From positions 1 to 64,000 of the forward strand of contig NZ_JPOC01000046.1 of the NCBI RefSeq assembly GCF_000738775.1: DNA of 64,000 nt. Reading direction: 5' to 3'. The first letter of the stretch is position 1, and every line of letters begins with the position of its first letter. The DNA comes from Prescottella defluvii. GTDB taxonomy: Bacteria; Actinomycetota; Actinomycetes; Mycobacteriales; Mycobacteriaceae. A program made the position numbers and the translations under genes. The notes beneath the pieces were generated by a model. It made no database searches. It was not told where the DNA came from and worked only from the letters and a program-made list of their open reading frames with translations. Of the stretch, positions 28,735 through 42,348 are shown piece after piece.

Positions 28735-30297
28735 ATGTGTAAACCTGGCTCAGCGTTCGCAGCGGTCATCGCTGCATGCGCACTCTTCCTGACCGCGGCC
28801 GGCACCGCCGCGGCGCAACCATCGCCGACTCCGGTCACGGCACTGCAGGCCGAGGGGACGCAGTTGCTCGACGGCCACGGCCGGACCGTCCTGCTGCACG
28901 GCGTCAACAACGTCGACAAGGACGCGCCGTACCTGCCGGCGGGCGCAACCCTCACGACGCAGGACATCGACATCCTGGTCCGGCACGGCTTCAACACCGT
29001 CCGCCTCGGCACATCGTTCGACGCGTTGATGCCCGAGCGTGGACAGGTCGACGAGGACTATCTCGACCGGATCACCGGGGTCGTCGACGCCCTCACCGCC
29101 CGCGGCATCTACGTGCTGCTCGACAACCACCAGGACGGACTGTCGAAGCCCTGGGGCGGCAACGGATTTCCCGCGTGGTCGATCCAGTCGCGACCCGAGT
29201 CGTGGGAACCGAACCCGGGCTTCCCGCTGTACTACGTGATGCCGAGCATGAACGTCGGCTGGGACGAGGTGTGGAACAACACGCACGGCGCTCTCGACTA
29301 CCTCGGCACCGCCCTCGGCGCACTCGCCGCGAGGATGGAGGGCAAGCCGGGGGTGATGGGCATCGAACTCATGAACGAGCCGTGGCCCGGATCGCCGTTC
29401 CTGACGTGCTTTCCGAGCGGCTGTCCCGACTTCGACCGCAAGTATCAGGGCGCGATGCAGAAGCTGACCGACTCGGTGCGTGCGGAGAACCCGACGATCC
29501 CGGTGTACTGGGAGCCGAACGTCACGTGGAACCAGATGATGCCGTCGAACCTGTTCAATCCGCCTGCGACACCGGCCGTCACCGACGCCGACATCGTCTT
29601 CGCACCGCACGACTACTGCATTCCCAGCCAGCTCGCGATCTATCTCGGGTTGCCGCAGGCGCTGCGCTCGCTGTGCGTCCCACAGCAGGACCTCACGTGG
29701 TCCCACATCGACGCGGTCACCGAACGCGCGAACATCCCGACCGTGGTCACCGAGTTCGGCGACGGCGATCCGACGGTCCTGAAGAACACGCTCGCGCGCG
29801 CCGACGAACGGTTCATCGGCTGGCAGTACTGGCATTTCGGCGCCGGCAACGTCACCGATCCGTTCCTCGGCGACGTCGGCCGGCAGCTCGTCCGCACCTA
29901 CCCGCAGGCCACGGCCGGCGATCCGGGTCGCATGATCTTCGACGCCGACAACGGCGACTTCGCCTACCGGTACACGCCACGGGCCGCGTCCCGGCCCACC
30001 GAGATCTATGTCTCCGACCTGCACTATCCCGACGGTTACGAGGTGTCGGTGGACGGCGGATCGGTGACCTCCGCGGCGGGCGCCCGGATCGTCACCGTCG
30101 CCGCCGACGGCAGCGGACCGGTGACCGTGAAGATCAACCGGCCCGGGTCACCGGGCGCCGAGGTCCCGGACGGCCCGATCAGCACGAGTTCGTCGGGCAG
30201 CACGGGCTCGTCGGGCAGCAGCGGATCCCTCAGCAGCGAGGGATCTCTCGGTAGCAGCGGATCCCTCGGCAGCAGCGGATCCGGCGACGGATCCTAG
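28735..30297 (+). CDS. Secreted endoglycoceramidase-like GH5 glycosidase
   Basis: ATG 28735 (with GAGGGAA upstream) gives 520 residues. Residues 1-27 are a signal peptide. The GH5 barrel carries the acid/base Glu215 in LMNEPWPGS and the nucleophile Glu340 in VVTEFGDGD. LLHGVNNVDKDAPY near the start and IYVLLDNHQDGLS fit the endoglycoceramidase group known from Rhodococcus. Such enzymes release the oligosaccharide from glycosphingolipids. A C-terminal beta domain (about 385-475) is followed by a Ser/Gly-only tail of roughly 40 residues built from GSLGSSGS-like repeats. Expression is probably controlled by the operator just upstream. Confidence 0.88.
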   Translation: MCKPGSAFAAVIAACALFLTAAGTAAAQPSPTPVTALQAEGTQLLDGHGRTVLLHGVNNVDKDAPYLPAGATLTTQDIDILVRHGFNTVRLGTSFDALMPERGQVDEDYLDRITGVVDALTARGIYVLLDNHQDGLSKPWGGNGFPAWSIQSRPESWEPNPGFPLYYVMPSMNVGWDEVWNNTHGALDYLGTALGALAARMEGKPGVMGIELMNEPWPGSPFLTCFPSGCPDFDRKYQGAMQKLTDSVRAENPTIPVYWEPNVTWNQMMPSNLFNPPATPAVTDADIVFAPHDYCIPSQLAIYLGLPQALRSLCVPQQDLTWSHIDAVTERANIPTVVTEFGDGDPTVLKNTLARADERFIGWQYWHFGAGNVTDPFLGDVGRQLVRTYPQATAGDPGRMIFDADNGDFAYRYTPRAASRPTEIYVSDLHYPDGYEVSVDGGSVTSAAGARIVTVAADGSGPVTVKINRPGSPGAEVPDGPISTSSSGSTGSSGSSGSLSSEGSLGSSGSLGSSGSGDGS

Positions 30298-30307
30298 GAA
30301 CACAGCA

Positions 30308-30344
30308 CACCGGGACCGGACCCGCAGACGGTCCGGTCCCGGTG
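30308..30344. terminator. Terminator between the glycosidase gene and the metE homologue
   Basis: Perfect 15-bp arms (30308-30322 and 30330-30344; CACCGGGACCGGACC and its complement) with a 7-nt loop between two convergent genes. Confidence 0.85.
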
Positions 30345-30363
30345 CGCTGACCGATCGGCGCAC

Positions 30364-32652
30364 CTACCCCTGCACGGCACGCCGCCGCAAACGTCGGGCC
30401 GCCGCAACCAGGTTGCGCAGCGACGGCTCGAGCTGCCAGTAGTGGCGGGGCTTGAGCCCGCCGTCGGGGTTCGCCCACAGCCGGTCGAGGTCCACGGACT
30501 CGGCGGCCTCGGTGAGCAGTTCGTCGAGTTCGTCGATGTCGGGGATCCGCGCCGAACGACTCTCGTACACACCGGGTCCGACGCCGTGGGTGAGGGCCTT
30601 CTCCTTGATCGCTTCCAGCACCCAGCCGATCGAGCGGGTCGCGACGATCGCAGTGACGTCGGCGTCGAGTCGCTCGATCGCGTCCACGACGGACCGCTGA
30701 CCCGAGTACGTCAGGTGCGTGTGGATCTGCGTCGCGGGCTTGGCGCCGCCGGTCGCGAGACGGAACGCGTCGACCGCCCAGTCCAGGTACTCCTTGCGCC
30801 CGGTTTCGCGTAGCGGCAACAGCTCCCGGATGGCCGGCTCGTCGACCTGGATGATCGCGATGCCGGCGGCCTCGAGGTCGGCGATCTCGTCACGGATCGC
30901 CAGAGCCAGCTGGTCGGCGGTCTCGTGCAGCGGCTGGTCCTGGCGCACGAACGAGCGCGCCAGCATCGTGACCGGACCGGTGAGCATGCCCTTGACCGGC
31001 TTGGCGGTGAGGGACTGCGCGTACGAGATCCATTCCACCGTCATCGGCTTCGGGCGGCGGACGTCGCCGTACAGCACCGGCGGTCGGGTACACCGTGAGC
31101 CGTACGCCTGCACCCACCCGTTGTGGGTGAACGCGTAGCCCTCGAGCAGTTCCGCGAAGTACTGCACCATGTCGTTGCGTTCGTGCTCGCCGTGGACGAA
31201 CACGTCCAGGCCGATGTCCTCCTGCAACGCGATCGTCTTCGCGATCTCGTCCTGGATGCGCTTGTAGTACTCGTCCCAGTCGAGTCGTCCCTGCCCCAGG
31301 TCGTAGCGGGCCTGACGGATCTCGTCGGTCTGCGGGAACGATCCGAGTGTCGTCGCGGGCACCGGCGGCAGGTTCAGTCGAGCCTGCTGCGCGATACGGC
31401 GCTCCTCGTACGGTGCACGGACCCGGTGCGCGGGCGTGATCGCATTGACCCGCGCCCGGACGTCGTGCTTCTGCTTGAAGTGCACCGACGTCGGCTTCTT
31501 GCGCCAGCGGTCGGACGGACCCTCGGTGAGTGCCTTGGCGAGCGAGACCACCTCGCCGACCTTCTGTTTCGCGAAGGCGAGACGGTCGGCGACGTCGCCG
31601 GGCAGGTCGTACTCCATGAGCACGTCGTACGGGACGTGCAGCAGCGAGGACGACGTCGACACGACGAGGTCCGGGGTGACGTCCTTGATCTGGTTGAGGT
31701 AGGTGAGGGTGTTGAACCGGTCGACGCGCCACACGTTGCGGCCGTCGACGATGCCGGCGTAGATCCGCTTGCGACGGATGCCGGGAATCTTCGCGAGCTC
31801 CTCGGCGGTGATGCGGCCGTTGACCAGATCCAGGCCGAGCGCCTCGACGGGGGTGGCGGCCAGGATCGGCAGCGCCTCCCCCAGCGACCCGTACGGTCCG
31901 GTGACGAGGATGCGCGGGCGCAGCGGGGCGTGCGCGAGACTCTCGTACGCGCGACCGAGCGCCGCCAGCTCCTCCGGGCTGCGGTCCTCGGTGAAGCACG
32001 GCTCGTCGAGCTGGATGCACGTCGCACCGGCCTTGGCGAGCTGCGCGAACAGCTTCTCGTATTCCGGGAGCAGCGTGTCGAGCAGATCGAGCGTCGCGAA
32101 ACCGTCCTGCGTGGAGCCGGGCGCGATCTTCGACAGCAGCAGCAGTGAGACCGGGCCGAGCAGCACAGGCCGCAGCTCGATACCGAGCGCCTTGGCCCGC
32201 TCGAACTCGTCGAGCATTGTCTCCGAATGCAATTCGAATGTGGTGCGCTCGTCCAGTTCGGGCTGACGGTAGTGGTAGTTGGTGCCGAAGAACCGCACCA
32301 GCTCGAGGGGCGGGAAGTCGGGCCGGCCACGAGCCATCGTGAAGTAGAAGTCGAGTGGGTCGAGCTCACCCTGCAGCGGGGCGAAACGTTCGGGGACGGC
32401 TCCGAACAGCAGGGCGTTGTCGAGCACGTGGTCGTAGTACGAGAACGTATTGCCGGGAACCTGCGTGAGCCCGGTGGCCGCGAGTTCGCTCCACGTCTGC
32501 TCTTGCAGTTCCCTTGCGACGGAGACGAGTTCGTCCTTGGTTCCGGTTCCGTGCCAGTAGGCCTCGAGAGCCCGCTTGAGTTCCCGGCGGGGCCCGATGC
32601 GGGGGTATCCGAGGACGCTGGATCCGTACCCGGCGGTGTTTGCGGCGGACAT
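30364..32652 (-). CDS. metE: MetE homologue lacking three of four zinc ligands
   Basis: The 762-residue product has the length and two-barrel layout of cobalamin-independent methionine synthase, with YPRIGPRRELKRALEAYW at the N-terminus and GYAFTHNGWVQAYGSRC in the C-terminal barrel. In normal MetE the zinc ligands are His, Cys, Glu and Cys (E. coli 641, 643, 665, 726). Here His646 is kept, but the others read Thr648 (HTHLTYS), Val670 (AIVATRS) and Gly731 (NPDGGLKPR). The usual TILCWSF stretch is TMLARSF. It is therefore unlikely to activate homocysteine in the standard way. AGGAAGGG precedes the ATG. No cobalamin riboswitch fits in the 91-base upstream gap. Confidence 0.85.
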   Translation of the reverse strand: MSAANTAGYGSSVLGYPRIGPRRELKRALEAYWHGTGTKDELVSVARELQEQTWSELAATGLTQVPGNTFSYYDHVLDNALLFGAVPERFAPLQGELDPLDFYFTMARGRPDFPPLELVRFFGTNYHYRQPELDERTTFELHSETMLDEFERAKALGIELRPVLLGPVSLLLLSKIAPGSTQDGFATLDLLDTLLPEYEKLFAQLAKAGATCIQLDEPCFTEDRSPEELAALGRAYESLAHAPLRPRILVTGPYGSLGEALPILAATPVEALGLDLVNGRITAEELAKIPGIRRKRIYAGIVDGRNVWRVDRFNTLTYLNQIKDVTPDLVVSTSSSLLHVPYDVLMEYDLPGDVADRLAFAKQKVGEVVSLAKALTEGPSDRWRKKPTSVHFKQKHDVRARVNAITPAHRVRAPYEERRIAQQARLNLPPVPATTLGSFPQTDEIRQARYDLGQGRLDWDEYYKRIQDEIAKTIALQEDIGLDVFVHGEHERNDMVQYFAELLEGYAFTHNGWVQAYGSRCTRPPVLYGDVRRPKPMTVEWISYAQSLTAKPVKGMLTGPVTMLARSFVRQDQPLHETADQLALAIRDEIADLEAAGIAIIQVDEPAIRELLPLRETGRKEYLDWAVDAFRLATGGAKPATQIHTHLTYSGQRSVVDAIERLDADVTAIVATRSIGWVLEAIKEKALTHGVGPGVYESRSARIPDIDELDELLTEAAESVDLDRLWANPDGGLKPRHYWQLEPSLRNLVAAARRLRRRAVQG

Positions 32653-32683
32653 GCGGATCGACCCTTCCTAGGCGGCTACACCG

Positions 32684-32729
32684 CCCGTGCGCCTTTCCGG
32701 TAGCGGGAGCTGCCGGAAAGGCGCACGGG
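32684..32729. terminator. Strong hairpin between fadB2 and the metE homologue
   Basis: Perfect 17-bp arms (32684-32700 and 32713-32729) with a 12-nt loop. Both flanking genes run leftward, so it ends fadB2 transcription and separates it from metE. Confidence 0.85.
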
Positions 32730-32743
32730 CGCGGAGCTCTTGG

Positions 32744-33640
32744 TCAGCTTGCCTTCTTGGCGACACGACCGTTGTCGGCGTATTCGTAGAAGCCGGCACC
32801 CGACTTCTTGCCGACGAGCCCTGCCTCGACCATCCGCAGCAGCAGTGGCGGGGCCGAGTACAGCGGCTCCTTGAACTCCTCGTACATCGAGTCGGCGATC
32901 GACTTGACGGTGTCAAGTCCCACCAGATCGGTCAGCGCGAGCGGACCCATCGGGTGCGCACATCCGAGCACCATCGTCTTGTCGATGTCTTCCTTGGTGG
33001 CGAATCCGGATTCGACCATGCGGATCGCGGACAGCAGGTACGGCACCAGCAGTGCGTTGGCGATGAAACCGGCGCGGTCGCTGGACCGGACCACCTGCTT
33101 GCCGAGCACCTCGCCGGCGAACGCCTCGGCGCGGGCCGACACGGTCGAGCTGGTCTTGAGTGTGGTGACCAGTTCGACGAGCGGGAGGACCGGCACCGGG
33201 TTGAAGAAGTGCATGCCGATCACCCGTTCGGGCGCCTTGGTGGCGATGCCGAGCTTCATGATCGGGATGGACGACGTGTTCGACGCGAGCACCGCGTCGG
33301 GGTCCGTCACGATCGAGTCGAGTTCGGTGAAGATCTCACTCTTGATCTTCTCGTCCTCGACGACGGCCTCCACTACGAGCTGCCGATCGGCGAAGTCGCC
33401 GAGGTCGGACGTGAAGCGCAGCCGCCAGGCGGCCTGCTCCCGTTCCCGCTCGGTGATCTTGCCGCTGCTCACTCCGCGATCGAGCGAGCGCAGGATGCGT
33501 GAGCGTCCGGCCGCCGCGAGTTCGCGGGTCTGCTCGAACACCAGCACGTCGACATGTGCACGGGCGCACACCTCGGCGATTCCGGAACCCATGATGCCGG
33601 CGCCGATCACGCCGACGCGCTGAATCTTTTCGCTGGTCAC
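32744..33640 (-). CDS. fadB2: 3-hydroxybutyryl-CoA dehydrogenase FadB2
   Basis: GTG 33640 follows AGGAG with five bases; 298 residues. The NAD-binding motif is GVIGAGIMGSGIA and the catalytic region is MHFFNPVPVLPLVE, with the conserved His and Glu, then NTSSIPI. The C-terminal 3HCDH domain (from about residue 185) carries SDRAGFIANALLVPYL and GAGFYEY. It oxidises 3-hydroxyacyl-CoA in beta-oxidation. It directly follows aceA, as fadB2 follows icl1 in M. tuberculosis. Confidence 0.95.
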   Translation of the reverse strand: MTSEKIQRVGVIGAGIMGSGIAEVCARAHVDVLVFEQTRELAAAGRSRILRSLDRGVSSGKITEREREQAAWRLRFTSDLGDFADRQLVVEAVVEDEKIKSEIFTELDSIVTDPDAVLASNTSSIPIMKLGIATKAPERVIGMHFFNPVPVLPLVELVTTLKTSSTVSARAEAFAGEVLGKQVVRSSDRAGFIANALLVPYLLSAIRMVESGFATKEDIDKTMVLGCAHPMGPLALTDLVGLDTVKSIADSMYEEFKEPLYSAPPLLLRMVEAGLVGKKSGAGFYEYADNGRVAKKAS

Positions 33641-33675
33641 GTCAGCTCCTTTTCGAAGTGGAGGTCGGGTCCCTC

Positions 33676-33715
33676 GGGAGGGATCGGCGTGGAGGACACC
33701 CCACCGATCCCTCCC
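33676..33715. terminator. Hairpin downstream of aceA
   Basis: Perfect 12-bp arms GGGAGGGATCGG (33676-33687) and CCGATCCCTCCC (33704-33715), with a GTGG/CCAC pair inside the 16-nt loop, between aceA and fadB2. Confidence 0.75.
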
Positions 33716-33729
33716 TCAGGGTGAGAGGC

Positions 33730-35019
33730 CTAGTGGAACTGGCCCTCTTCGGTGGAGCCCTTCAGGGCAGCCGTGGAGGTGTTGGGGTCGACGGTGGTGG
33801 CGATGCGGTCGAAGTAACCGGCGCCGACCTCACGCTGGTGCTTGATGGCGGTGAAGCCACGCTCGGCAGCAGCCTTGAACTCGCGCTCCTGCAGGTCGAC
33901 GAAGGCGGTCATGCCCTCGCGGGCGTAGCCGTGCGCCAGGTCGAACATGCCGTAGTTGAGCGAGTGGAAGCCGGCGAGGGTGATGAACTGGAACTTGAAG
34001 CCCATCGCGCCGAGCTCCTTCTGGAACTTCGCGATGGTCGCGTCGTCCAGGTGCGCCTTCCAGTTGAAGGACGGCGAGCAGTTGTAGGCCAGCAGCTGGT
34101 CCGGGAACTCGCTGCGGACGGCCTCGGCGAACTTCTTCGCAACCTCGAGGTCCGGCACGCCGGTCTCCATCCAGATGAGGTCGGAGTACGGGGCGTAGGC
34201 CTTCGCACGAGCGATGCAGGGCTCGATGCCGTTCTTGACGCCGTAGAAGCCCTCGGCCGTGCGGGTGCCGTCGAGGAACTCGCGGTCACGCTCGTCGACG
34301 TCGGAGGTCAGCAGCGTGGCGGCCTCGGCGTCGGTGCGGGCGATGACGACGGTCGGGACGTCGGCGACGTCGGCCGCGAGGCGAGCCGAGGTCAGGGTGC
34401 GGATGTGCTGCTGGGTGGGGATGAGCACCTTGCCACCGAGGTGGCCGCACTTCTTCTCCGACGCGAGCTGGTCCTCCCAGTGCGAACCGGCGACGCCGGC
34501 CGCGATCATGGCCTTCTGCAGCTCGTAGACGTTGAGCGCGCCACCGAAGCCGGCCTCACCGTCGGCGACGATCGGAGCGAGCCAGTTGTCGACCGAGGTG
34601 TCACCCTCGACCTTGGCGATCTCGTCGGCGCGGAGCAGCGCGTTGTTGATGCGGCGGACGACCTGCGGGACCGAGTTCGCCGGGTACAGCGACTGGTCCG
34701 GGTAGGTGTGGCCGGACAGGTTGGCGTCGCCGGCGACCTGCCAGCCGGAGAGGTAGATGGCCTTGAGGCCCGCGCGGACCTGCTGGACGGCCTGGTTGCC
34801 GGTGAGCGCACCGAGCGAGTTGATGTAGTCCTCGTTGTTCACGAGATCCCAGAGGATCTCGGAGCCGCGGCGAGCGAGGGTGGCCTCTTCGACGACGGAG
34901 CCCTGGAGCTTGACGACCTGCTCCGCGGTGTAGTTGCGCGTGACGCCCTTCCAACGGGGGTTGGTGTCCCAGTCCTGCTGGATCTGCTCTGCGGTCCTCG
35001 GGGTGCCGGTGGTCGACAT
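33730..35019 (-). CDS. aceA: Isocitrate lyase
   Basis: ATG 35019 has GGAG six bases upstream; 429 residues, the length of the short prokaryotic Icl1 type. The catalytic loop KKCGHLGGK places Cys191 as in Icl1. Other landmarks are [15 protein letters not shown] (metal/substrate site) and YNCSPSFNW. It cleaves isocitrate to succinate and glyoxylate and usually also serves the methylcitrate cycle in actinobacteria. The upstream region contains repeated TTGCTA motifs and the ramB gene lies nearby. Confidence 0.96.
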
Positions 35020-35458
35020 CGAAAGCTCCACTTCTTCTCTGCTGCTTCGGCCGGTACGGATGTACTGCTTCACATCGTTGCCAGGCCGTTCGGATGTACA
35101 AACCGACAATGGCACAGACGAAAACCGCCGTCTACCTGTTGCTAGTGCCAATCTTCGCTAGCTTTTCAACTCCATCTGCGAAGGTTGCTAATTTTCACGC
35201 GGCCAAGCAACTGCTTGGGTTACTGCCCAGTAGGTCCCGAATGTTACTCACAAGTAGGCATCTACCTCGGGGTTCGCCGCCGAACCCCCTCCGTCGACGG
35301 AAGGTGAAATCGGACACGTGCGCGCCGACCCGGACGGGTGATCCTCGCCGGGTCGCGACGCGCGGAGTGAGGGCAATCACAGATGCGGGCAGGCTTTCCG
35401 CCCACCGGAACGATCGGAAACGGGAGTCACAGATACTTCCGCGACGCCTCGAGGGCTC
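35020..35458. other. 439-bp intergenic region: aceA promoter and control region
   Basis: No convincing gene is present. The base composition is visibly less GC-rich between 35080 and 35260. Three near-identical motifs read on the plus strand as TTGCTAG (35139-35145), TCGCTAG (35155-35161) and TTGCTAA (35185-35191) upstream of aceA. The rest, from 35260 to 35458, holds the 3' flank of the leftward hypothetical gene and shows nothing recognisable. Confidence 0.6.
35139..35191. repeat. Three TTGCTA-type repeats upstream of aceA (candidate RamB boxes)
   Basis: TTGCTAG, TCGCTAG and TTGCTAA start at 35139, 35155 and 35185 (steps of 16 and 30). Related TGCTAAC and GTTAGCA half-sites flank the ramB promoter. 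Binding by RamB is an inference. Confidence 0.4.
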
Positions 35459-36271
35459 CTACCGGCCCGATTCGCCGCCGACGATCGCAACCCTTGCGAA
35501 GCCGTAGCGGGCGTCCAGGGGTTTGGCCGTCGGCGCCATCTCGTAGGCGTGCGGTCCGAACTCGGCACATTCGATGACGGCCGACCCCGACACGATCGGC
35601 GACAGCCGGGTCACCTTCCATCGGGTGTGCACGAGGTCGCCGGAATCCTCGACGTCCGCGCCGGAGCCCTCGTGGTTCCTCAGAATCAACTGTTCGTTCC
35701 AGCTCTGATGGGCGAGCCAGTCGGGCGTCAACTGCGTTCGCTGCGATCCGCAGTCCGCGAGGTCGACGGTGCCGACGATTCCTCGGCCGCCACCGTCCGC
35801 CGGCGCGATCGCGAAGCCCATGCCGCCGACGCCGTTGACGAGTTCGAGCTGGGCCTGCGGAATGGTCGGCAGCCGGAAGATGTCCTGGCCCGTCCGATCC
35901 TCGATCGGTGTCCCGACGAGGATGTCGGAGGTATAGGCGCCCTCCAGCCCGCTGTCGGGGTGCATACAGCTGCACGACAGTCCGGCGAACAGGCGTCCGA
36001 ACGGATCCTCGACCTCGTTCGAGTCGGTGGACAGCGGGTCGACGATCCACACCGCGATCCGGGGCCGGTCCGGGACGGCCAGCGATTCGGGCAGCAGCGC
36101 CCGCGCGAACCGCCGGTGGACCTCGGTCGTGAGAACGAGCCAGCGGGCCGTCACCGACGCCTCGTTCGGATCTCCCGTCTCGACGGATTCCGACTCGACG
36201 GATTCCGGCTCGGCGAGCAGCGTCGGATGCGCGGGCCCGCTCGGTGCGCGGCGCTTGGAGGTAAAGATCAT
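35459..36271 (-). CDS. Hypothetical protein
   Basis: ATG 36271 has GAGG five bases upstream; 270 residues without signal peptide or membrane segment. The N-terminal 40 residues are acidic and Ser/Glu-rich (PESVESESVETGD). A mixed alpha/beta body follows, with LVLTTEVHRRFARALLP, VWIVDPLSTDSNEVEDPFGRLF and ECAEFGPHAYEM. I do not recognise a family. It sits divergently between aceA and ramB, in the place where mycobacteria carry an acyl-ACP thioesterase gene (Rv0466); the sequence does not look like one. Confidence 0.6.
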   Translation of the reverse strand: MIFTSKRRAPSGPAHPTLLAEPESVESESVETGDPNEASVTARWLVLTTEVHRRFARALLPESLAVPDRPRIAVWIVDPLSTDSNEVEDPFGRLFAGLSCSCMHPDSGLEGAYTSDILVGTPIEDRTGQDIFRLPTIPQAQLELVNGVGGMGFAIAPADGGGRGIVGTVDLADCGSQRTQLTPDWLAHQSWNEQLILRNHEGSGADVEDSGDLVHTRWKVTRLSPIVSGSAVIECAEFGPHAYEMAPTAKPLDARYGFARVAIVGGESGR

Positions 36272-36592
36272 CGTGACCTCGGACGAACCTGATCGGGCGG
36301 GTCTCGCATCTGCGACACCTCAGCCTCCGGACAGGGAGCAGCACACGCCCTCTTCGTCGGGGGCGAGCGTGGGCCGGCGACACCCGTCGCACGACGGACG
36401 TCGATATCGTTCCGCTCAGGACGCGCAGGCCCTCCCCGCCCGACCCAAACCGCCTCGCAACCAATGCTTTACGCAAACATTCATTCGGTTGCCGCCCAGC
36501 ATTTTCCATGGGTGACCGAGATGTCAAGACTTGTTCCTGAAACGTCATGTTCGGTCGGTATCGCGGCCGGACACGGAACAAGGATCACCAAC

Positions 36593-36621
36593 TGCTAACC
36601 CAACCCTTTGCACAGTTAGCA
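36593..36621. promoter_or_regulatory. Inverted repeat at the ramB promoter (candidate auto-operator)
   Basis: TGCTAAC (36593-36599) and GTTAGCA (36615-36621) are perfect 7-bp arms with a 15-nt spacer that contains CTTTGCAC. The right arm ends nine bases before the TACGCT -10 hexamer. Confidence 0.55.
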
Positions 36622-36630
36622 TCACGCTCG

Positions 36631-36636
36631 TACGCT
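36631..36636 (+). promoter_or_regulatory. -10 hexamer TACGCT of ramB
   Basis: TACGCT, six bases, then ATG 36643; no Shine-Dalgarno sequence, so ramB is probably leaderless. Confidence 0.6.
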
Positions 36637-36642
36637 GGCCAC

Positions 36643-38052
36643 ATGGCCAAGACCTTCGTCGGCGTCCGTCTGCGACAGCTCCGTACCGAACGTGGCCTCA
36701 GCCAGGCCGCGCTCGCGAAGACGCTGGACATCTCGGCGAGCTACCTCAACCAGATCGAGCACGACGTCCGCCCGCTCACGGTACCGGTGCTGCTGCGGAT
36801 CAGCGAGGTGTTCGGTGTCGACACCACGTTCTTCTCCTCGCAGGACGACACCCGGCTGATCGCGGAACTGCGGGAGGTGGCGCTCGACGACGACATGGGC
36901 ATCGACGCGGACGCGCAGGAGATCGCGGAGATGGTGTCGTCGCATCCGGGTCTGGCGAAGGCGATGGTGAACATGCACCGCCGGTACCGCAACACCACCG
37001 CACAGCTGGCCGCCGCGACCGAGGACCGGTTCAACGACGGCAGCGGCAGCGGTGCGATCACGATGCCGCATGAGGAGGTGCGCGACTACTTCTATCAGCG
37101 GCAGAACTACATCCACGACCTCGACACCGCGGCCGAGGAGCTGACCGCCCGCATGCGGTTCCACCGCGGCGACATCGCCGACGGCATCGCCCGCCGGCTC
37201 GAGAACCTGCACGACGTCCAGATCGTGCGCCGAATCGATCTCGGTGAGAACGTGCTGCACCGGTACGACCCCGAGACGCGGCTGCTCGAGATCTCTCCGG
37301 CCCTGTCCGGCGGGCAGCAGGTGTTCAAGTTCGCGACCGAACTCGCGTACCTCGAGTGCGGCGACCTGCTGCGCAAGCTCGTGGACGAGGGCAACTTCAC
37401 CTCCGACGAGGCCCGCTCGCTCGCGATGCTGGGTCTGGCCAACTACTTCGCGGCCGCGACGGTGCTGCCGTACGGCCAGTTCCACGAGATCGCGGAGGAC
37501 TTCCGGTACGACATCGAGCGCCTGTCGGCGTTCTATGCGATCAGCTACGAGACGATCTGCCACCGCCTGTCGACGCTCCAGCGTCCCAAGCAGCGGGGCG
37601 TGCCGTGGTCGTTCGTCCGAGTCGATCGCGCCGGGAACATGTCGAAGCGCCAGTCCGCCACCGGTTTCCACTTCTCGTCCAGCGGCGGCACGTGCCCGCT
37701 GTGGAACGTGTACGAGACCTTCGCCTATCCCGGCAAGATCATGACGCAGGTCGCGCAGATGCCCGACGGCCGCAACTACCTCTGGGTGGCCCGCACGATC
37801 GAGCGCCGCGCGTCACGCTACGGACAGCCGGGCAAGACGTTCGCGATCGGTCTCGGGTGCGAACTGCGGCACGCGCCGCGCGTGGTCTACGCGGACGGCC
37901 TCGACCTCGGGGGCGACACCGCGACACCGATCGGCGCGGGTTGCCGTGTGTGCGAGCGGATGAACTGCCCGCAGCGCGCGTTCCCTCCGCTCGGGAAGGA
38001 ACTCGACATCAACGAGCACCGTAGTTCGGTCTCGCCGTACACGATTCGCTGA
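36643..38052 (+). CDS. ramB: RamB-type regulator of acetate/glyoxylate metabolism
   Basis: ATG 36643 gives 469 residues, near the length of Rv0465c; the open frame upstream to 36547 is not needed. An N-terminal XRE helix-turn-helix (about residues 9-62, GLSQAALAKTLDISASYLNQIE) is followed by an IrrE/ImmA-like domain (about 155-280). The C-terminal short-chain-fatty-acyl regulator domain has the Cys cluster CRVCERMNCPQRAFPP. RamB represses aceA and related genes in Corynebacterium and Mycobacterium. It lies about 1.6 kb from aceA here and carries an inverted repeat over its own promoter. Confidence 0.93.
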   Translation: MAKTFVGVRLRQLRTERGLSQAALAKTLDISASYLNQIEHDVRPLTVPVLLRISEVFGVDTTFFSSQDDTRLIAELREVALDDDMGIDADAQEIAEMVSSHPGLAKAMVNMHRRYRNTTAQLAAATEDRFNDGSGSGAITMPHEEVRDYFYQRQNYIHDLDTAAEELTARMRFHRGDIADGIARRLENLHDVQIVRRIDLGENVLHRYDPETRLLEISPALSGGQQVFKFATELAYLECGDLLRKLVDEGNFTSDEARSLAMLGLANYFAAATVLPYGQFHEIAEDFRYDIERLSAFYAISYETICHRLSTLQRPKQRGVPWSFVRVDRAGNMSKRQSATGFHFSSSGGTCPLWNVYETFAYPGKIMTQVAQMPDGRNYLWVARTIERRASRYGQPGKTFAIGLGCELRHAPRVVYADGLDLGGDTATPIGAGCRVCERMNCPQRAFPPLGKELDINEHRSSVSPYTIR

Positions 38053-38100: not shown

Positions 38101-38261
38101 GAGCAGCTGTTCATGCCGGTGTAACAACCGACACGAACTCGTCACCGACAGACATACCGGCGCAATAACTTCCGCCTACCGTGTGCGATCACGGATACAG
38201 CGTCGTATTCGCTCCTCTTCGGGACAGCTCCGGGTCACATCATCGACGGAAAGGCTCGTTC

Positions 38262-39530
38262 ATGCCTACGTTCTCCAAGCGCACCCTCGCCGCTCCCGCT
38301 GCGCTCGCGGCGTTCGGTCTGGTTCTGACCGGCTGCGGCAGCAAGGCGTCGGACCCGTCCGCCGACGGCAGCACATCCGCGGCGTCCTGCGTGGACACTT
38401 CCGGCGACACGATCAAGGTCGGCTCGCTGAACTCGCTGTCCGGCACGATGGCCATCAGCGAGGTCACCGTCCGCGACTCGATCGCCCTCGCGGTCGAGGA
38501 GATCAACGACGCCGGCGGCGTGCTGGGCAAGCGGATCCAGATCGTGGCAGAGGACGGCGCGTCGGAGCCGACGGTGTTCGCGGAGAAGGCCGAGAAGCTC
38601 ATCAGCAGTGACTGTGTCGCAGCGGTTTTCGGCGGCTGGACGTCGTCGAGCCGCAAGGCGATGCTGCCGGTGTTCGAGGACAACAACTCGCTGCTCTACT
38701 ACCCCGTCCAGTACGAGGGCCTCGAGGACTCGCCCAACATCTTCTACACGGGTGCGACCACCAACCAGCAGATCGTGCCGGCGCTGGACTACCTGAAGGA
38801 GAAGGGCGTCACGTCGCTGTACCTGGTGGGCAGCGACTACGTCTTCCCCCAGACCGCCAATCGCATCATCAAGGCGTACGCGGCGGCCAACGGGATCGAG
38901 ATCAAGGGCGAGGACTACACGCCCCTCGGGTCCACCGACTTCTCCACGATCGTCAACAAGGTCCGTACCGCCGACGCCGACGCCGTGTTCAACACCCTCA
39001 ACGGCGACTCCAATGTCGCCTTCTTCCGCGAGTACTCCAATGTCGGGCTGAAAGCTGCCGACATGCCGGTGATCTCGGTGTCCATTGCGGAGGAGGAGGT
39101 GGGCGGTATCGGTGCCCAGAACATCACGGGCCAGCTCACCGCGTGGAACTACTACCAGACCGTAGACACGCCGGAGAACAAGAAGTTCGTCGAGGCCTAC
39201 AAGGCGAAGTACGGGGCGAACAAGCCGACGTCCGATCCGATGGAGGCCGCCTACACATCGGTGCATCTGTGGAAGAACACTGTCGAGAAGGCGAATTCGT
39301 TCGCAGTGGCCGACATCCAGTCCGCCGCCGACGGTGTCACGTTCGCGGCCCCGGAGGGCACGGTCACCATCGACGGCGACAACCACCACATCACCAAGAC
39401 CGCCCGTATCGGCGAGATCCGCGACGACGGACTGATCTACACCGTCTGGGAATCCGACGGCCCGATCCAGCCGGACCCGTACCTCGAGAGCTACGACTGG
39501 GCGAAGAGCCTGTCCGGCTCCGGTAGCTGA
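38262..39530 (+). CDS. urtA: Urea-type ABC transporter substrate-binding lipoprotein UrtA
   Basis: ATG 38262 follows GGAAAGG with seven bases; 422 residues. A lipoprotein signal ends at VLTGC (Cys25). The body is a type I periplasmic-binding fold with UrtA landmarks: IKVGSLNSLSGTMAISE, INDAGGVLGKRIQIVAEDGAS, LLYYPVQYEGLEDSPNIFYTGA and SIAEEEVGGIG. It is the first gene of the urtABCDE operon and should deliver urea or a short amide to UrtBC. A TACCGT hexamer at 38177-38182 could be the promoter -10, leaving an 80-base leader. Confidence 0.92.
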   Translation: MPTFSKRTLAAPAALAAFGLVLTGCGSKASDPSADGSTSAASCVDTSGDTIKVGSLNSLSGTMAISEVTVRDSIALAVEEINDAGGVLGKRIQIVAEDGASEPTVFAEKAEKLISSDCVAAVFGGWTSSSRKAMLPVFEDNNSLLYYPVQYEGLEDSPNIFYTGATTNQQIVPALDYLKEKGVTSLYLVGSDYVFPQTANRIIKAYAAANGIEIKGEDYTPLGSTDFSTIVNKVRTADADAVFNTLNGDSNVAFFREYSNVGLKAADMPVISVSIAEEEVGGIGAQNITGQLTAWNYYQTVDTPENKKFVEAYKAKYGANKPTSDPMEAAYTSVHLWKNTVEKANSFAVADIQSAADGVTFAAPEGTVTIDGDNHHITKTARIGEIRDDGLIYTVWESDGPIQPDPYLESYDWAKSLSGSGS

Positions 39531-39569
39531 CACGCAGCGTTCAACGACGACGAGGGAGGGCGGGCACCG

Positions 39570-40454
39570 ATGGATGTTGTTGTCGGGCAGCTGTTCACCG
39601 GCCTGAGTATCGGGTCGATCCTGCTGTTGGCGGCACTGGGGCTGTCGCTGACGTTCGGGCAGATGGGCGTGATCAACATGGCCCACGGCGAGTTCATCAT
39701 GGCCGGTTCGTACACCGCGTACGTGGTGCAGCAGGTCGTTTCCAGTGCCGGCGCCTCACTGCTGATCTCGCTGGTGGTCGGCTTCGTGGTGGCCGGCTTG
39801 CTGGGCGTCGCGCTCGAGACCACCCTGATCCGCCGGATGTACCACCGTCCGCTGGACACCCTGCTGGTGACGTTCGGCGTCGGGTTGGTGCTGCAGCAAC
39901 TCGCACGCGACATCTTCGGCGCCCCCGCCGTCAACGTCGTCGCACCGTCGTGGCTCTCGGGCGGTGTGGAAATCCTCGGGGCGGTGGTCCCGAAGACGCG
40001 GATATTCATCCTGCTCCTCGCGATCGTCGCCGTCGCGGCCCTGTCGTTCGCGTTGGCGAGGACGTCGACGGGTCGCCGGATCCGCGCGGTGGTCCAGAAC
40101 CGTGACCTCGCGGAGACCAGCGGAATCTCTTCACGCCGTACCGATGTCACGACGTTCTTCATCGGATCCGGTCTGGCCGGTGTCGCCGGGGTGGCGTTGA
40201 CACTGATCGGCTCCACCAGTCCGACCATCGGGCAGTCGTACCTGATCGACGCGTTCCTGGTCGTCGTGATCGGCGGTCTGGGCCGACTGTCCGGCGCGGT
40301 GGTCGCGGCCGTCGCGCTCGGCATCCTCAATTCGTTCATCGAGTACTCCACCACCGCATCGATCGCGAAGGTGATCGTGTTCGTGCTCATCGTCGTCTTC
40401 CTGCAGATCCGCCCGCAGGGACTGTTCGTCGCCAAGACAAGGAGCCTGGTATGA
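39570..40454 (+). CDS. urtB: Urea ABC transporter permease UrtB
   Basis: ATG 39570 follows GGGAGGG; 294 residues with about eight membrane helices. The LivH-type pattern is clear (LTFGQMGVINMAHGEFIMAGSYTAY region, landmark INMAHGEF). A later GLGRLSGAVVAAVALGILN loop contacts the ATPase. It lies 39 bases after urtA and overlaps urtC by four bases (ATGA). Confidence 0.92.
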   Translation: MDVVVGQLFTGLSIGSILLLAALGLSLTFGQMGVINMAHGEFIMAGSYTAYVVQQVVSSAGASLLISLVVGFVVAGLLGVALETTLIRRMYHRPLDTLLVTFGVGLVLQQLARDIFGAPAVNVVAPSWLSGGVEILGAVVPKTRIFILLLAIVAVAALSFALARTSTGRRIRAVVQNRDLAETSGISSRRTDVTTFFIGSGLAGVAGVALTLIGSTSPTIGQSYLIDAFLVVVIGGLGRLSGAVVAAVALGILNSFIEYSTTASIAKVIVFVLIVVFLQIRPQGLFVAKTRSLV

Positions 40455-41548
40455 CCGTGCTCAGTCGTTACCGGGCCTGGGTGGGGTTCGCCGTCGCGGC
40501 GGTGGCGCTGTTCGCCGTCGCGCCGGCGCTGCTCTCCGACTTCCGGCTCAATCTGCTGGCCAAGTTCCTGTGCTTCGCGATCGTCGCGGTCGGCATCGGA
40601 TTGGCTTGGGGTCGTGGTGGAATGCTCACGCTGGGGCAGGGTGTGTTCTTCGGCCTCGGCGCCTACATCATGGCGATGCACCTCAAGATCGCCGACGCGG
40701 AGTTGCGCGGCGATGCGGTACCGGACTTCATGCAGATCGCGGGCATCGGTGAACTGCCCGGATACTGGCTGCCGTTCACCTCGCCGTTCACCACCATCGC
40801 CGCGATTCTGGTCGTGCCGGGCCTGGTCGCGTTCCTGCTCGGAATCGGGGTGTTCAAGCGTCGGGTCAAGGGCGCGTACTTCGCGATCCTGTCGCAGGCC
40901 CTCGCGGCGGCGTTCGCGATCCTGCTGATCGGCCAGCAGTCGATCGGCGGATCCAACGGGCTCAACCGTTTCCGCACCTTCTTCGGCTTCAATCTGTCCG
41001 ATCCGGCGAACAAGCGGATGCTGTTCTTCATCGCGGCCGCCGTCCTGCTGGTAGTGGTCGCCGCCACCCGGCAGCTGATGCGTTCGCGGTACGGCGAACT
41101 GCTGGTGGCGGTCCGCGACCAGGAGGAGCGTGTCCGGTTCCTCGGCTACGATCCGGCGAACATCAAGGTGGTCGCGTACACCGTCGCCGCGTTCTTCGCC
41201 GGCATCGCGGGTGCACTCTTCGTGCCGATCGTCGGCATCATCTCCCCCGCCGACGTCGGTATCGTCCCCTCGATCGCCTTCCTCATCGGCGTCGCGATCG
41301 GCGGGCGCACCACACTGCTGGGTCCGGTTCTCGGTGCGATCGGTGTCGCGTGGGCGCAGACCACGCTGTCGGAGAACTTCCCGTCTGCATGGACCTACGC
41401 ACAGGGCCTGCTGTTCATCGTCGTGATCGGCTTCTTCCCCGCCGGCATCGCCGGTGTCGCAACGTTGCTGCGCCGCCGCACCCTCGTCGTCACGCCCCCA
41501 CCGGATCCCGAACCCGAACCCGTCCGCGAAATGGAGGCAGCACGATGA
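40451..41548 (+). CDS. urtC: Urea ABC transporter permease UrtC
   Basis: The start overlaps the urtB stop (ATGA); 365 residues with about ten membrane helices. LivM-type motifs include AWGRGGMLTLGQGVFFGLGAY (landmark GMLTLGQG) and RYGELLVAVRDQEERVRFLGYDP, the coupling loop for the ATPases. Its end overlaps urtD, keeping the operon translationally coupled. Confidence 0.92.
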   Translation: MTVLSRYRAWVGFAVAAVALFAVAPALLSDFRLNLLAKFLCFAIVAVGIGLAWGRGGMLTLGQGVFFGLGAYIMAMHLKIADAELRGDAVPDFMQIAGIGELPGYWLPFTSPFTTIAAILVVPGLVAFLLGIGVFKRRVKGAYFAILSQALAAAFAILLIGQQSIGGSNGLNRFRTFFGFNLSDPANKRMLFFIAAAVLLVVVAATRQLMRSRYGELLVAVRDQEERVRFLGYDPANIKVVAYTVAAFFAGIAGALFVPIVGIISPADVGIVPSIAFLIGVAIGGRTTLLGPVLGAIGVAWAQTTLSENFPSAWTYAQGLLFIVVIGFFPAGIAGVATLLRRRTLVVTPPPDPEPEPVREMEAAR

Positions 41549-42348
41549 ACCACACCCGCCACCAGCCGAAACTCGGCGGCAACGCCGGAATGTCCAGCCA
41601 GTATCTCGAGATTCGCGACCTGCGGGTCACGTTCGACGGCTTCACCGCCGTCGACGGCGTGGATCTCACACTCCTGCAGGGAGATCTGCGGTTCCTCATC
41701 GGCCCCAACGGTGCCGGGAAGACCACCCTGGTCGACGCGGTGACCGGGCTGGTTCCAGCGACCGGTTCCGTCACCAAGTCGGGGGTGGAACTGCTGGGGC
41801 GGAAGGTCCACAAGATCGCACGACTGGGCGTGGGCCGGACGTTCCAGACGGCGTCGGTGTTCGAGGAACTCACGGTGTTGCAGAACCTCGACATCGCCGC
41901 CGGGGCCGGACGCTCGGCGCTGACGCTGCTGCGCCGCCGCACGTCCGTCCTGCCGCAGATCGAGGAGGCCCTCGAGACGATCGGCCTGAGCCACCTGCGC
42001 GACCGCAAGGCGGGGATCCTCGCGCACGGACAGAAGCAGTGGCTCGAGATCGGCATGCTGCTGGTGCAGGACGCCGACGTGCTGCTGCTCGACGAACCGG
42101 TGGCCGGGATGAGCCACGACGAGCGTGAGGAAACCGGAAACCTACTGCGCCGCATCGGCGGTGAACGCACCGTCGTGGTCGTCGAACACGACATGGACTT
42201 CATGCGGGCCTTCGCGACGTCCGTGACCGTCCTGGCCCGCGGGAAGGTCATCGCCGACGGCAGCGTCGAGGAGATCCAGGCTGACCCGATGGTGCAGCAG
42301 GTGTACCTGGGCACCGCGGCCGCCGCCGACGTGCTCGAGGAGGTCTGA
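41545..42348 (+). CDS. urtD: Urea ABC transporter ATP-binding protein UrtD
   Basis: ATG 41545 overlaps the urtC stop; 267 residues. Walker A is GPNGAGKTT, the signature region is ILAHGQKQWLEIGMLL (UrtD-type variant of LSGGQ), and Walker B is DVLLLDEPVAGM. It energises UrtBC together with UrtE. The unusual HGQKQWLE signature is characteristic of UrtD and supports a urea-type rather than amino-acid transporter. Confidence 0.93.
   Translation: MNHTRHQPKLGGNAGMSSQYLEIRDLRVTFDGFTAVDGVDLTLLQGDLRFLIGPNGAGKTTLVDAVTGLVPATGSVTKSGVELLGRKVHKIARLGVGRTFQTASVFEELTVLQNLDIAAGAGRSALTLLRRRTSVLPQIEEALETIGLSHLRDRKAGILAHGQKQWLEIGMLLVQDADVLLLDEPVAGMSHDEREETGNLLRRIGGERTVVVVEHDMDFMRAFATSVTVLARGKVIADGSVEEIQADPMVQQVYLGTAAAADVLEEV

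Follow-up and report, generated by a model that had tools for sequence, protein, structure and literature searches.

What does a full-length homologue of the methionine synthase MetE do once the metal site of that enzyme is gone? MetE activates homocysteine as a zinc thiolate, and a gene at positions 30364..32652 on the minus strand of a 64,000-nucleotide stretch of Prescottella defluvii DNA (contig NZ_JPOC01000046.1 of assembly GCF_000738775.1, hereafter the window) encodes a MetE paralogue that lacks three of the four zinc ligands. We consider it probable, at roughly 60%, that this paralogue is a repurposed, metal-free member of an isocitrate lyase/3-hydroxybutyryl-coenzyme A (CoA) dehydrogenase gene set of acetate and fatty-acid metabolism, with a new ligand or reaction.

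An earlier reading made from the letters of the window alone (the sequence-only reading) had described a full-length MetE homologue, and the open reading frame proved exact, with 762 amino acids plus a stop codon and near full-length coverage by the MetE domains. Both halves of the two-barrel enzyme were matched in the domain search, PF08267 at residues 11-325 and PF01717 at residues 432-753. The protein scored 975.6 bits against the NCBIfam model NF003556 (cut-off 541) and 898 bits against TIGR01371, slightly below the cut-off of 929.95; its identity to canonical MetE copies was about 45-58% and its best match in PDB was 1u1h. The single-barrel core synthases (MesA-MesD) keep the zinc ligands, and the window protein is not of that type, being double-barrelled and having lost them.

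Loss of the zinc site and remodelling of the catalytic half

Using E. coli K-12 MetE (from NC_000913) as the ruler for numbering, His646, Thr648, Val670 and Gly731 of the window protein were found at E. coli His641, Cys643, Glu665 and Cys726, as the sequence-only reading had placed them. The comparison covered 149 aligned sequences, namely 86 of the zinc-less clade (clade A, 83 distinct) and 63 canonical MetE (60 distinct); L001-L003, L068 and L069 were set aside as duplicates, a short relative or fragments, L004 gave no match, and the rows include L024, which has a broken frame and is represented by its longest open piece only, and L079, which is truncated by a contig end. Cys643, Glu665 and Cys726, together with Trp561, were lost in 86/86 clade rows and kept in 63/63 canonical rows, with no intermediate rows between the two groups, and His641 is the only zinc ligand kept. 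The view that the positions were substituted and not misaligned is supported, and with the same three ligands absent from every aligned clade member and present in every canonical row, the loss is more than chance or sequencing error. The former Cys643 position is occupied in the clade by Gly (39 rows), Thr (25), Ala (8), Pro (6), Asn (3), Ser (3) and Glu (2), that of Glu665 by Val or Ile, and that of Cys726 by Gly with one Phe.

The invariance of His641 might suggest that the protein still binds zinc through newly recruited residues. No replacement Cys was common in the catalytic half of the 86 clade rows, and no new Cys takes over the site; the only common Cys there is Cys521 (73/86), which most canonical rows share, while 6/86 clade members have no Cys in the catalytic half and, in one genus, 4/27 of the clade proteins contain just one Cys over their entire length. 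We therefore hold a relocated zinc site to be very unlikely, and the form of it that the Cys counts leave standing is a site made of His, Asp and Glu only.

The functions of individual positions were taken from the available text of the T. maritima structure paper (PMC539065) and transferred to E. coli numbering. Ser433, Glu484, Asp489, Met490, Asp599 and His641 were identical in all 86 clade and all 63 canonical rows, and the homocysteine-binding set of Ser433, Glu484, Met490 and Asp599 is thus complete throughout the clade (86/86), with Ile431, which binds via its main chain, replaced by Leu in 86/86. The groove for the glutamate tail is likewise kept, with Arg17 in 86, Lys20 in 84, Arg515 in 86 and Arg or Lys at 518 in 86 of the 86 rows. 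The sequence-only reading had also noted the stretch TMLARSF, which is present and places Arg566 at the Trp of the CWSF motif (E. coli 561); its further view that the folate-side motifs were intact did not survive the alignment. Among the pterin-site and candidate proton-donor positions of MetE, Trp561 was kept in 0/86 rows, His694 in 3/86 (lost in 83), Lys117 in 22/86 (lost in 64), His124 in 65/86 (lost in 21), Glu605 in 77/86 (lost in 9) and Asp489 in 86/86, so that this constellation of MetE is not preserved.

Of the 208 columns conserved in canonical MetE, 25 were mostly different in the clade, and the zinc, pterin and proton-donor positions named in the available text of PMC539065 were changed at 6/9 (Fisher p = 1.1e-4); Asp489 was counted here among the binding residues although that paper names it as a possible proton donor, and when it is moved the first set becomes 6/10. 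Arg at 561 was accompanied by Glu605 in 77/77 rows and a residue other than Arg went with the absence of Glu605 in 9/9, the rows without Arg561 forming on the tree one five-row group plus A_L034, or about two events. We infer that the pterin pocket may be closed by a salt bridge between Arg566 and Glu610 (E. coli 561 and 605). Residues that have become fixed only within the clade include Arg699, which takes the place of E. coli His694, and Trp677, Glu697 and Thr672 in the catalytic half, and Arg129, Arg152, Arg247 and Arg296 in the N-terminal half. The N-terminal half also showed the replacements of Trp205 by Cys and of Val287 by Tyr (Cys212 and Tyr298 of the window protein), each fixed in the clade at a fraction of 1.0, which are perhaps compensating changes in core packing.

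A pseudoenzyme with an amino-acid ligand (homocysteine, methionine or another) that it does not turn over would account for an amino-acid pocket kept in 86/86 rows while the catalytic groups were lost, and for the freedom of position 648 (the former Cys) to vary; such a regulator would control isocitrate lyase, canonical MetE or a further regulator and tie the amino-acid state to growth on acetate. The many clade-fixed new residues would be more in keeping with a newly built site than with a sensor alone, and we regard a regulator as possible but doubtful.

A single clade under purifying selection

Among 101 genomes searched near the window, a close relative (at least 62% identity) was found in 45, all belonging to the family of the window, which corresponds to 45/61 genomes of that family; elsewhere in the order it was found in 0/40 genomes, with matches of at most 55% identity; the same search returned separate full-length MetE matches at about 47-55% identity. 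In a tree of 62 rows (27/86 clade and 35/63 canonical) built by a quick method and containing long branches (B_L073 to B_L075), the 27 clade rows were joined with a Shimodaira-Hasegawa-like approximate likelihood ratio (SH-aLRT) support of 100, and their stem, 0.66 changes per site long, was placed inside actinobacterial MetE. The clade is thus monophyletic, and its named members include Rhodococcus, Nocardia, Smaragdicoccus, Williamsia, Hoyosella and Dietzia besides Prescottella.

The rebuilt DIHSP loop provided a signature, GPG[VI]YE[ST]RS, which was detected in 138/301 genomes and 22/31 genera of the family; in the class as a whole it occurred in 4/394 genomes, each of them a member of the family of the window. 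The signature was searched with degenerate S and R codons and strictly elsewhere, and it misses the known members G016, G036 and G046, so these counts are lower bounds; the reversed signature used as control gave zero among the matches listed in both searches.

A duplicate that is merely decaying would also be expected to lose catalytic residues, as this one has, and real decay of MetE copies does occur nearby, in another family of the order (L268 and L269, described below). The clade gene is, however, one unbroken match in 44/45 genomes and its signature persists in 22/31 genera, and the ratio of non-synonymous to synonymous substitution rates (dN/dS) within the genus was 0.072-0.127 in eight clade pairs versus 0.134-0.203 in five pairs of canonical MetE. 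In the pairs compared, the paralogue is by this measure kept more tightly than true MetE, and decay without function is barely credible. The clade gene was found in two pieces in G008 (L024), an assembly that is 79% complete, and in one piece in the other 12 genomes of that genus and in that of the window.

Fifteen further MetE copies were read residue by residue, of which 13 were canonical at all ligands, including those of G020 and G049; counting all such readings, the copies from other families numbered 11, the short fragments of G070, G078, G084, G091, G093 and G096 being excluded. Two shortened copies of 707-712 amino acids, L268 (G085) and L269 (G094), come from one genus of another family of the order; they share 80% identity between themselves and 46% with the window protein. 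The DIHSP and NPDCG segments are missing from both, as are Ser433 and the ligands in the alignment made, and on that alignment they are a second, independent loss, outside the clade and more drastic than that of clade A. Spread by plasmids was considered and rejected, as 112/114 matching plasmid records were below 60% identity; the top match was a 2.66-Mb record of Nocardia farcinica, with no gene listed there.

Fixed association with isocitrate lyase

In the window the paralogue is the last of three minus-strand genes in the order isocitrate lyase, fadB2, paralogue, separated by gaps of 89 and 91 bp. Directly upstream of it lies a fadB2-like 3-hydroxybutyryl-CoA dehydrogenase of 298 amino acids (32744..33640; NF005875, 522 bits, with PF02737 and PF00725), preceded by isocitrate lyase, aceA (33730..35019; NF011645, 769 bits, from residue 50 on). 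The aceA frame extends to 35151 from a TTG codon, and the likely ATG start at residue 45, position 35019, was chosen. Divergent from isocitrate lyase on the plus strand is RamB, a regulator of acetate metabolism (36547..38052; NF038139, 863.7 bits).

The three genes stood in the same order and on the same strand in 37/37 loci, the window included, and in 23/23 further loci. Three loci are common to the two sets, and the neighbourhood with isocitrate lyase was therefore found in 60/60 loci with enough flank, 57 of them distinct; L079, L094 and L106 (below 9 kb) and L092 and L095 (without upstream genes) stand outside this set. The gap between fadB2 and the paralogue was estimated at 6-20 bp in L214, L217, L223, L113 and L226. 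By crude gene calls, the gene after the triad varied, with the commonest family in 6/37 loci, and RamB was the immediate upstream neighbour in 6/37; an opposite-strand RamB-like gene lay within the retrieved stretch in 13/20 of loci L214-L233 and in 3/3 of L211-L213. Family genomes that lack the clade were examined at their 12 best loci, and at 9 of these the genes for isocitrate lyase and the dehydrogenase still adjoined; the paralogue may therefore have joined, or left, an older pair.

A hairpin with a perfect 19-bp stem and a 12-nucleotide loop, without a T tract, lies between fadB2 and the paralogue on the minus strand of the window (32682..32731). Perfect stems of at least 9 bp were present in 10/63 fadB2-paralogue intergenic regions, the window included, and a conserved intergenic hairpin was rejected as not general among the relatives; occasional long hairpins were seen in the same gap of other species.

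Methionine synthesis in the genomes that carry the clade

The sequence-only reading had raised the idea of a second copy beside a true MetE or MetH, and the genome of the window indeed holds both, namely a canonical metE with a cobalamin riboswitch and metH, and in addition a short MesD-like protein of the MetE family that adjoins MesX. A riboswitch-controlled metE of this kind should be repressed by cyanocobalamin. The MesD-like and MesX genes (PF08908, E 7e-156) are found at L003, on contig C3 of the same genome (25714-29682), and also at L063. The pair in the genome of the window lies about 7 kb from the riboswitch-controlled canonical metE and with MetH amounts to three methionine-synthase systems in one genome.

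Across the 45 clade-A genomes, a full-length match of canonical MetE type was present in 30, was fragmented in one (G026) and was absent in 14, and all of these 14 have a match to MetH, as judged by the single domain PF02965. In the two clade-A genomes without a MetH match, G020 and G049, canonical MetE is present and retains the full set of four ligands. The cobalamin riboswitch was found at canonical metE in 11/12 loci of a related genus and in 0/8 clade-A loci, with none in the window.

The paralogue could still be a working zinc-free methionine synthase for times of zinc or B12 shortage, as it is full length with both barrels and keeps the determinants for homocysteine and the glutamate tail. 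Against this stand the loss of Trp561 and His694 along with the zinc, the fact that it is the sole methionine-synthase candidate in 0/45 clade-A genomes, the lack of a cobalamin riboswitch both in the window and at the 8 clade-A loci searched, and its fixed place beside isocitrate lyase, and we rate this reading as quite unlikely. With the zinc site lost, activation of homocysteine as a zinc thiolate should be impossible. The paralogue is very probably not a methionine synthase, and given both the lost zinc ligands and the changed pterin and proton-donor positions it should not be filed as one despite its match to NF003556.

Proposed function

At the level of sequence, our reading is supported by the lost zinc site, the changed pterin face, the confinement to one clade, strong purifying selection, the fixed neighbourhood and the presence of other methionine synthases in the same genomes. 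The fixed isocitrate lyase neighbourhood points to acetate or fatty-acid metabolism. We propose that within the family of the window a copy of MetE, after duplication, was remodelled to work without metal as part of the glyoxylate-shunt gene set, in which form the zinc-thiolate route to methionine would be closed, and that it would be expressed together with isocitrate lyase on ethanol, acetate or fatty acids. An α-amino acid would be held by Ser438, Glu489, Asp604 and Met495 of the window protein in the pocket for the α-amino and α-carboxyl groups, and an anionic partner might occupy the kept glutamate-tail groove, while Arg566 and Arg699 would stand where the pterin stacking and the candidate proton donor were. 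Since the clade shows the fixation of numerous new residues and not simply decay, a new metal-free reaction appears somewhat more likely than a pure regulator. More specifically, and only tentatively, the protein might be an enzyme of C2 or fatty-acid assimilation that works without metal and carries out a reaction that no known MetE relative performs, with an α-amino acid in the old pocket and an anionic partner in the groove, for example a CoA compound or a cofactor with a polyglutamate tail (folate, F420). A link to F420 was sought through CofG/FbiC (TIGR03550), which was present in 91/101 relatives, in all 45 clade-A genomes and also in 46 without the clade, and was thus uninformative.

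Several observations weigh against membership of the gene set or against parts of the proposed cleft. None of the 9 binding residues was changed compared with 25/199 of the other columns, a difference that is not significant (p = 0.60), and the placement of residues in the cleft was carried over from the available text of PMC539065. The gap between fadB2 and the paralogue reaches 562 bp in some Nocardia, and the strong hairpin inside this gap in the window leaves a single transcript unsupported. The region upstream of isocitrate lyase is itself partly conserved, with one neighbour family in 17/37 loci (crude gene calls). Neither a promoter-like site nor a minus-strand terminator-like site was found within 30250-36600, and TTTGCAAA, which we take to be the core of the RamB motif, gave one match with one mismatch versus 2.3 expected. 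With no promoter, terminator or RamB motif, regulation as part of the set is therefore unsupported by the window sequence. Lastly, the identification of a strongly induced Rhodococcus protein with the paralogue, set out next, rests on its composition and not on its sequence.

Published expression and genomic data

The available text of PMC8557817 reports that a MetE of R. qingshengii IGTS8 (IGTS8_peg5907, with 2 Cys and 7 Met) was induced 190- to 273-fold, which its authors took to mean that sulphur-starved cells switch their methionine synthesis. The medium contained cyanocobalamin, and dibenzothiophene was supplied from a 100 mM ethanolic stock to a final 0.5 mM, which by our computation from the dilution brings about 0.5% ethanol into these cultures; in the same text ethanol is unmentioned for the sulphate cultures. 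For C2-regulated proteins in that data set, the ethanol of the dibenzothiophene cultures may be a confounder. The clade occurs in 27/28 genomes of the genus of G035, a genus that includes R. opacus and to which we assume R. qingshengii to belong, and the clade proteins there have exactly 2 Cys in 21/27 (1 or 3 in the rest) and 5 to 10 Met, the canonical MetE copies of this genus having 4 or 5 Cys in 15/15 read. By composition, IGTS8_peg5907 may therefore be the zinc-less paralogue. Given the cyanocobalamin in the medium and the ethanol carrier, the induction is more simply read as, and may be, the isocitrate lyase gene set answering to ethanol.

In the accessible part of PMC12721874, aceA is assigned to clusters F-G, which group neighbouring genes that are differently expressed, and the legend of its Fig. 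5 lists 'fabB' (3-hydroxybutyryl-CoA dehydrogenase) and metE in cluster F. The description of metE given there appears to be a slip; as the legend derives clusters F-G from R. enclensis and P. syringae, cluster F is assumed here to be the Rhodococcus one. The plastic region RGP-Cy15 of Nocardia cyriacigeorgica, as described in the available text of PMC3751702, holds metE, three genes of citrate metabolism and isocitrate lyase, and PMC13414329, so far as its available text goes, lists a metE of unspecified copy among the selenite-induced proteins of R. qingshengii. The metE of RGP-Cy15 and that of cluster F are probably the same gene as the paralogue in its usual neighbourhood, likened here without their sequences; the available text of both papers names the gene metE and does not mention the missing ligands. 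In our literature searches the zinc-less clade was not found described among the matches listed, most subscription journals being outside their coverage.

Comparison with known systems

The paralogue resembles MetE (NF003556/TIGR01371) in its full-length double barrel and in its homocysteine-binding and glutamate-tail residues, and differs in lacking three of the four zinc ligands, Trp561 and the His694 of DIHSP, in its TIGR01371 score under the cut-off, in its neighbourhood and in the lack of a riboswitch at the loci searched. The Chloroflexales MesB-like proteins described in the available text of Price et al. 2021 (PMC7857596), in which FSHG, YCDQ and YREQ stand for HCEC and for which another function was proposed, are a precedent for zinc-less members of the superfamily. 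They too form a MetE-superfamily branch without the zinc ligands; however, they are single-domain core proteins, whereas the paralogue is double-barrelled, keeps His641 and stands beside isocitrate lyase. The N-terminal barrel of MetE itself, according to the available text of PMC539065, also lost its zinc site after duplication, but it lost the homocysteine determinants as well, which the paralogue keeps.

Because of the match to NF003556, annotation and metabolic models will read the paralogue as a methionine synthase, and omics studies will be misled. If it is an enzyme, it would represent an unknown step of growth on acetate or fatty acids in a large actinobacterial family that matters to both industry and medicine.

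Other genes flank the region in the window. An Endoglycoceramidase I gene (28735-30297, plus strand; NF051847, 828.6 bits, above the cut-off) is convergent with the paralogue, and the urea ATP-binding cassette transporter genes urtA-urtD (38181-42348, plus strand) lie downstream of RamB.

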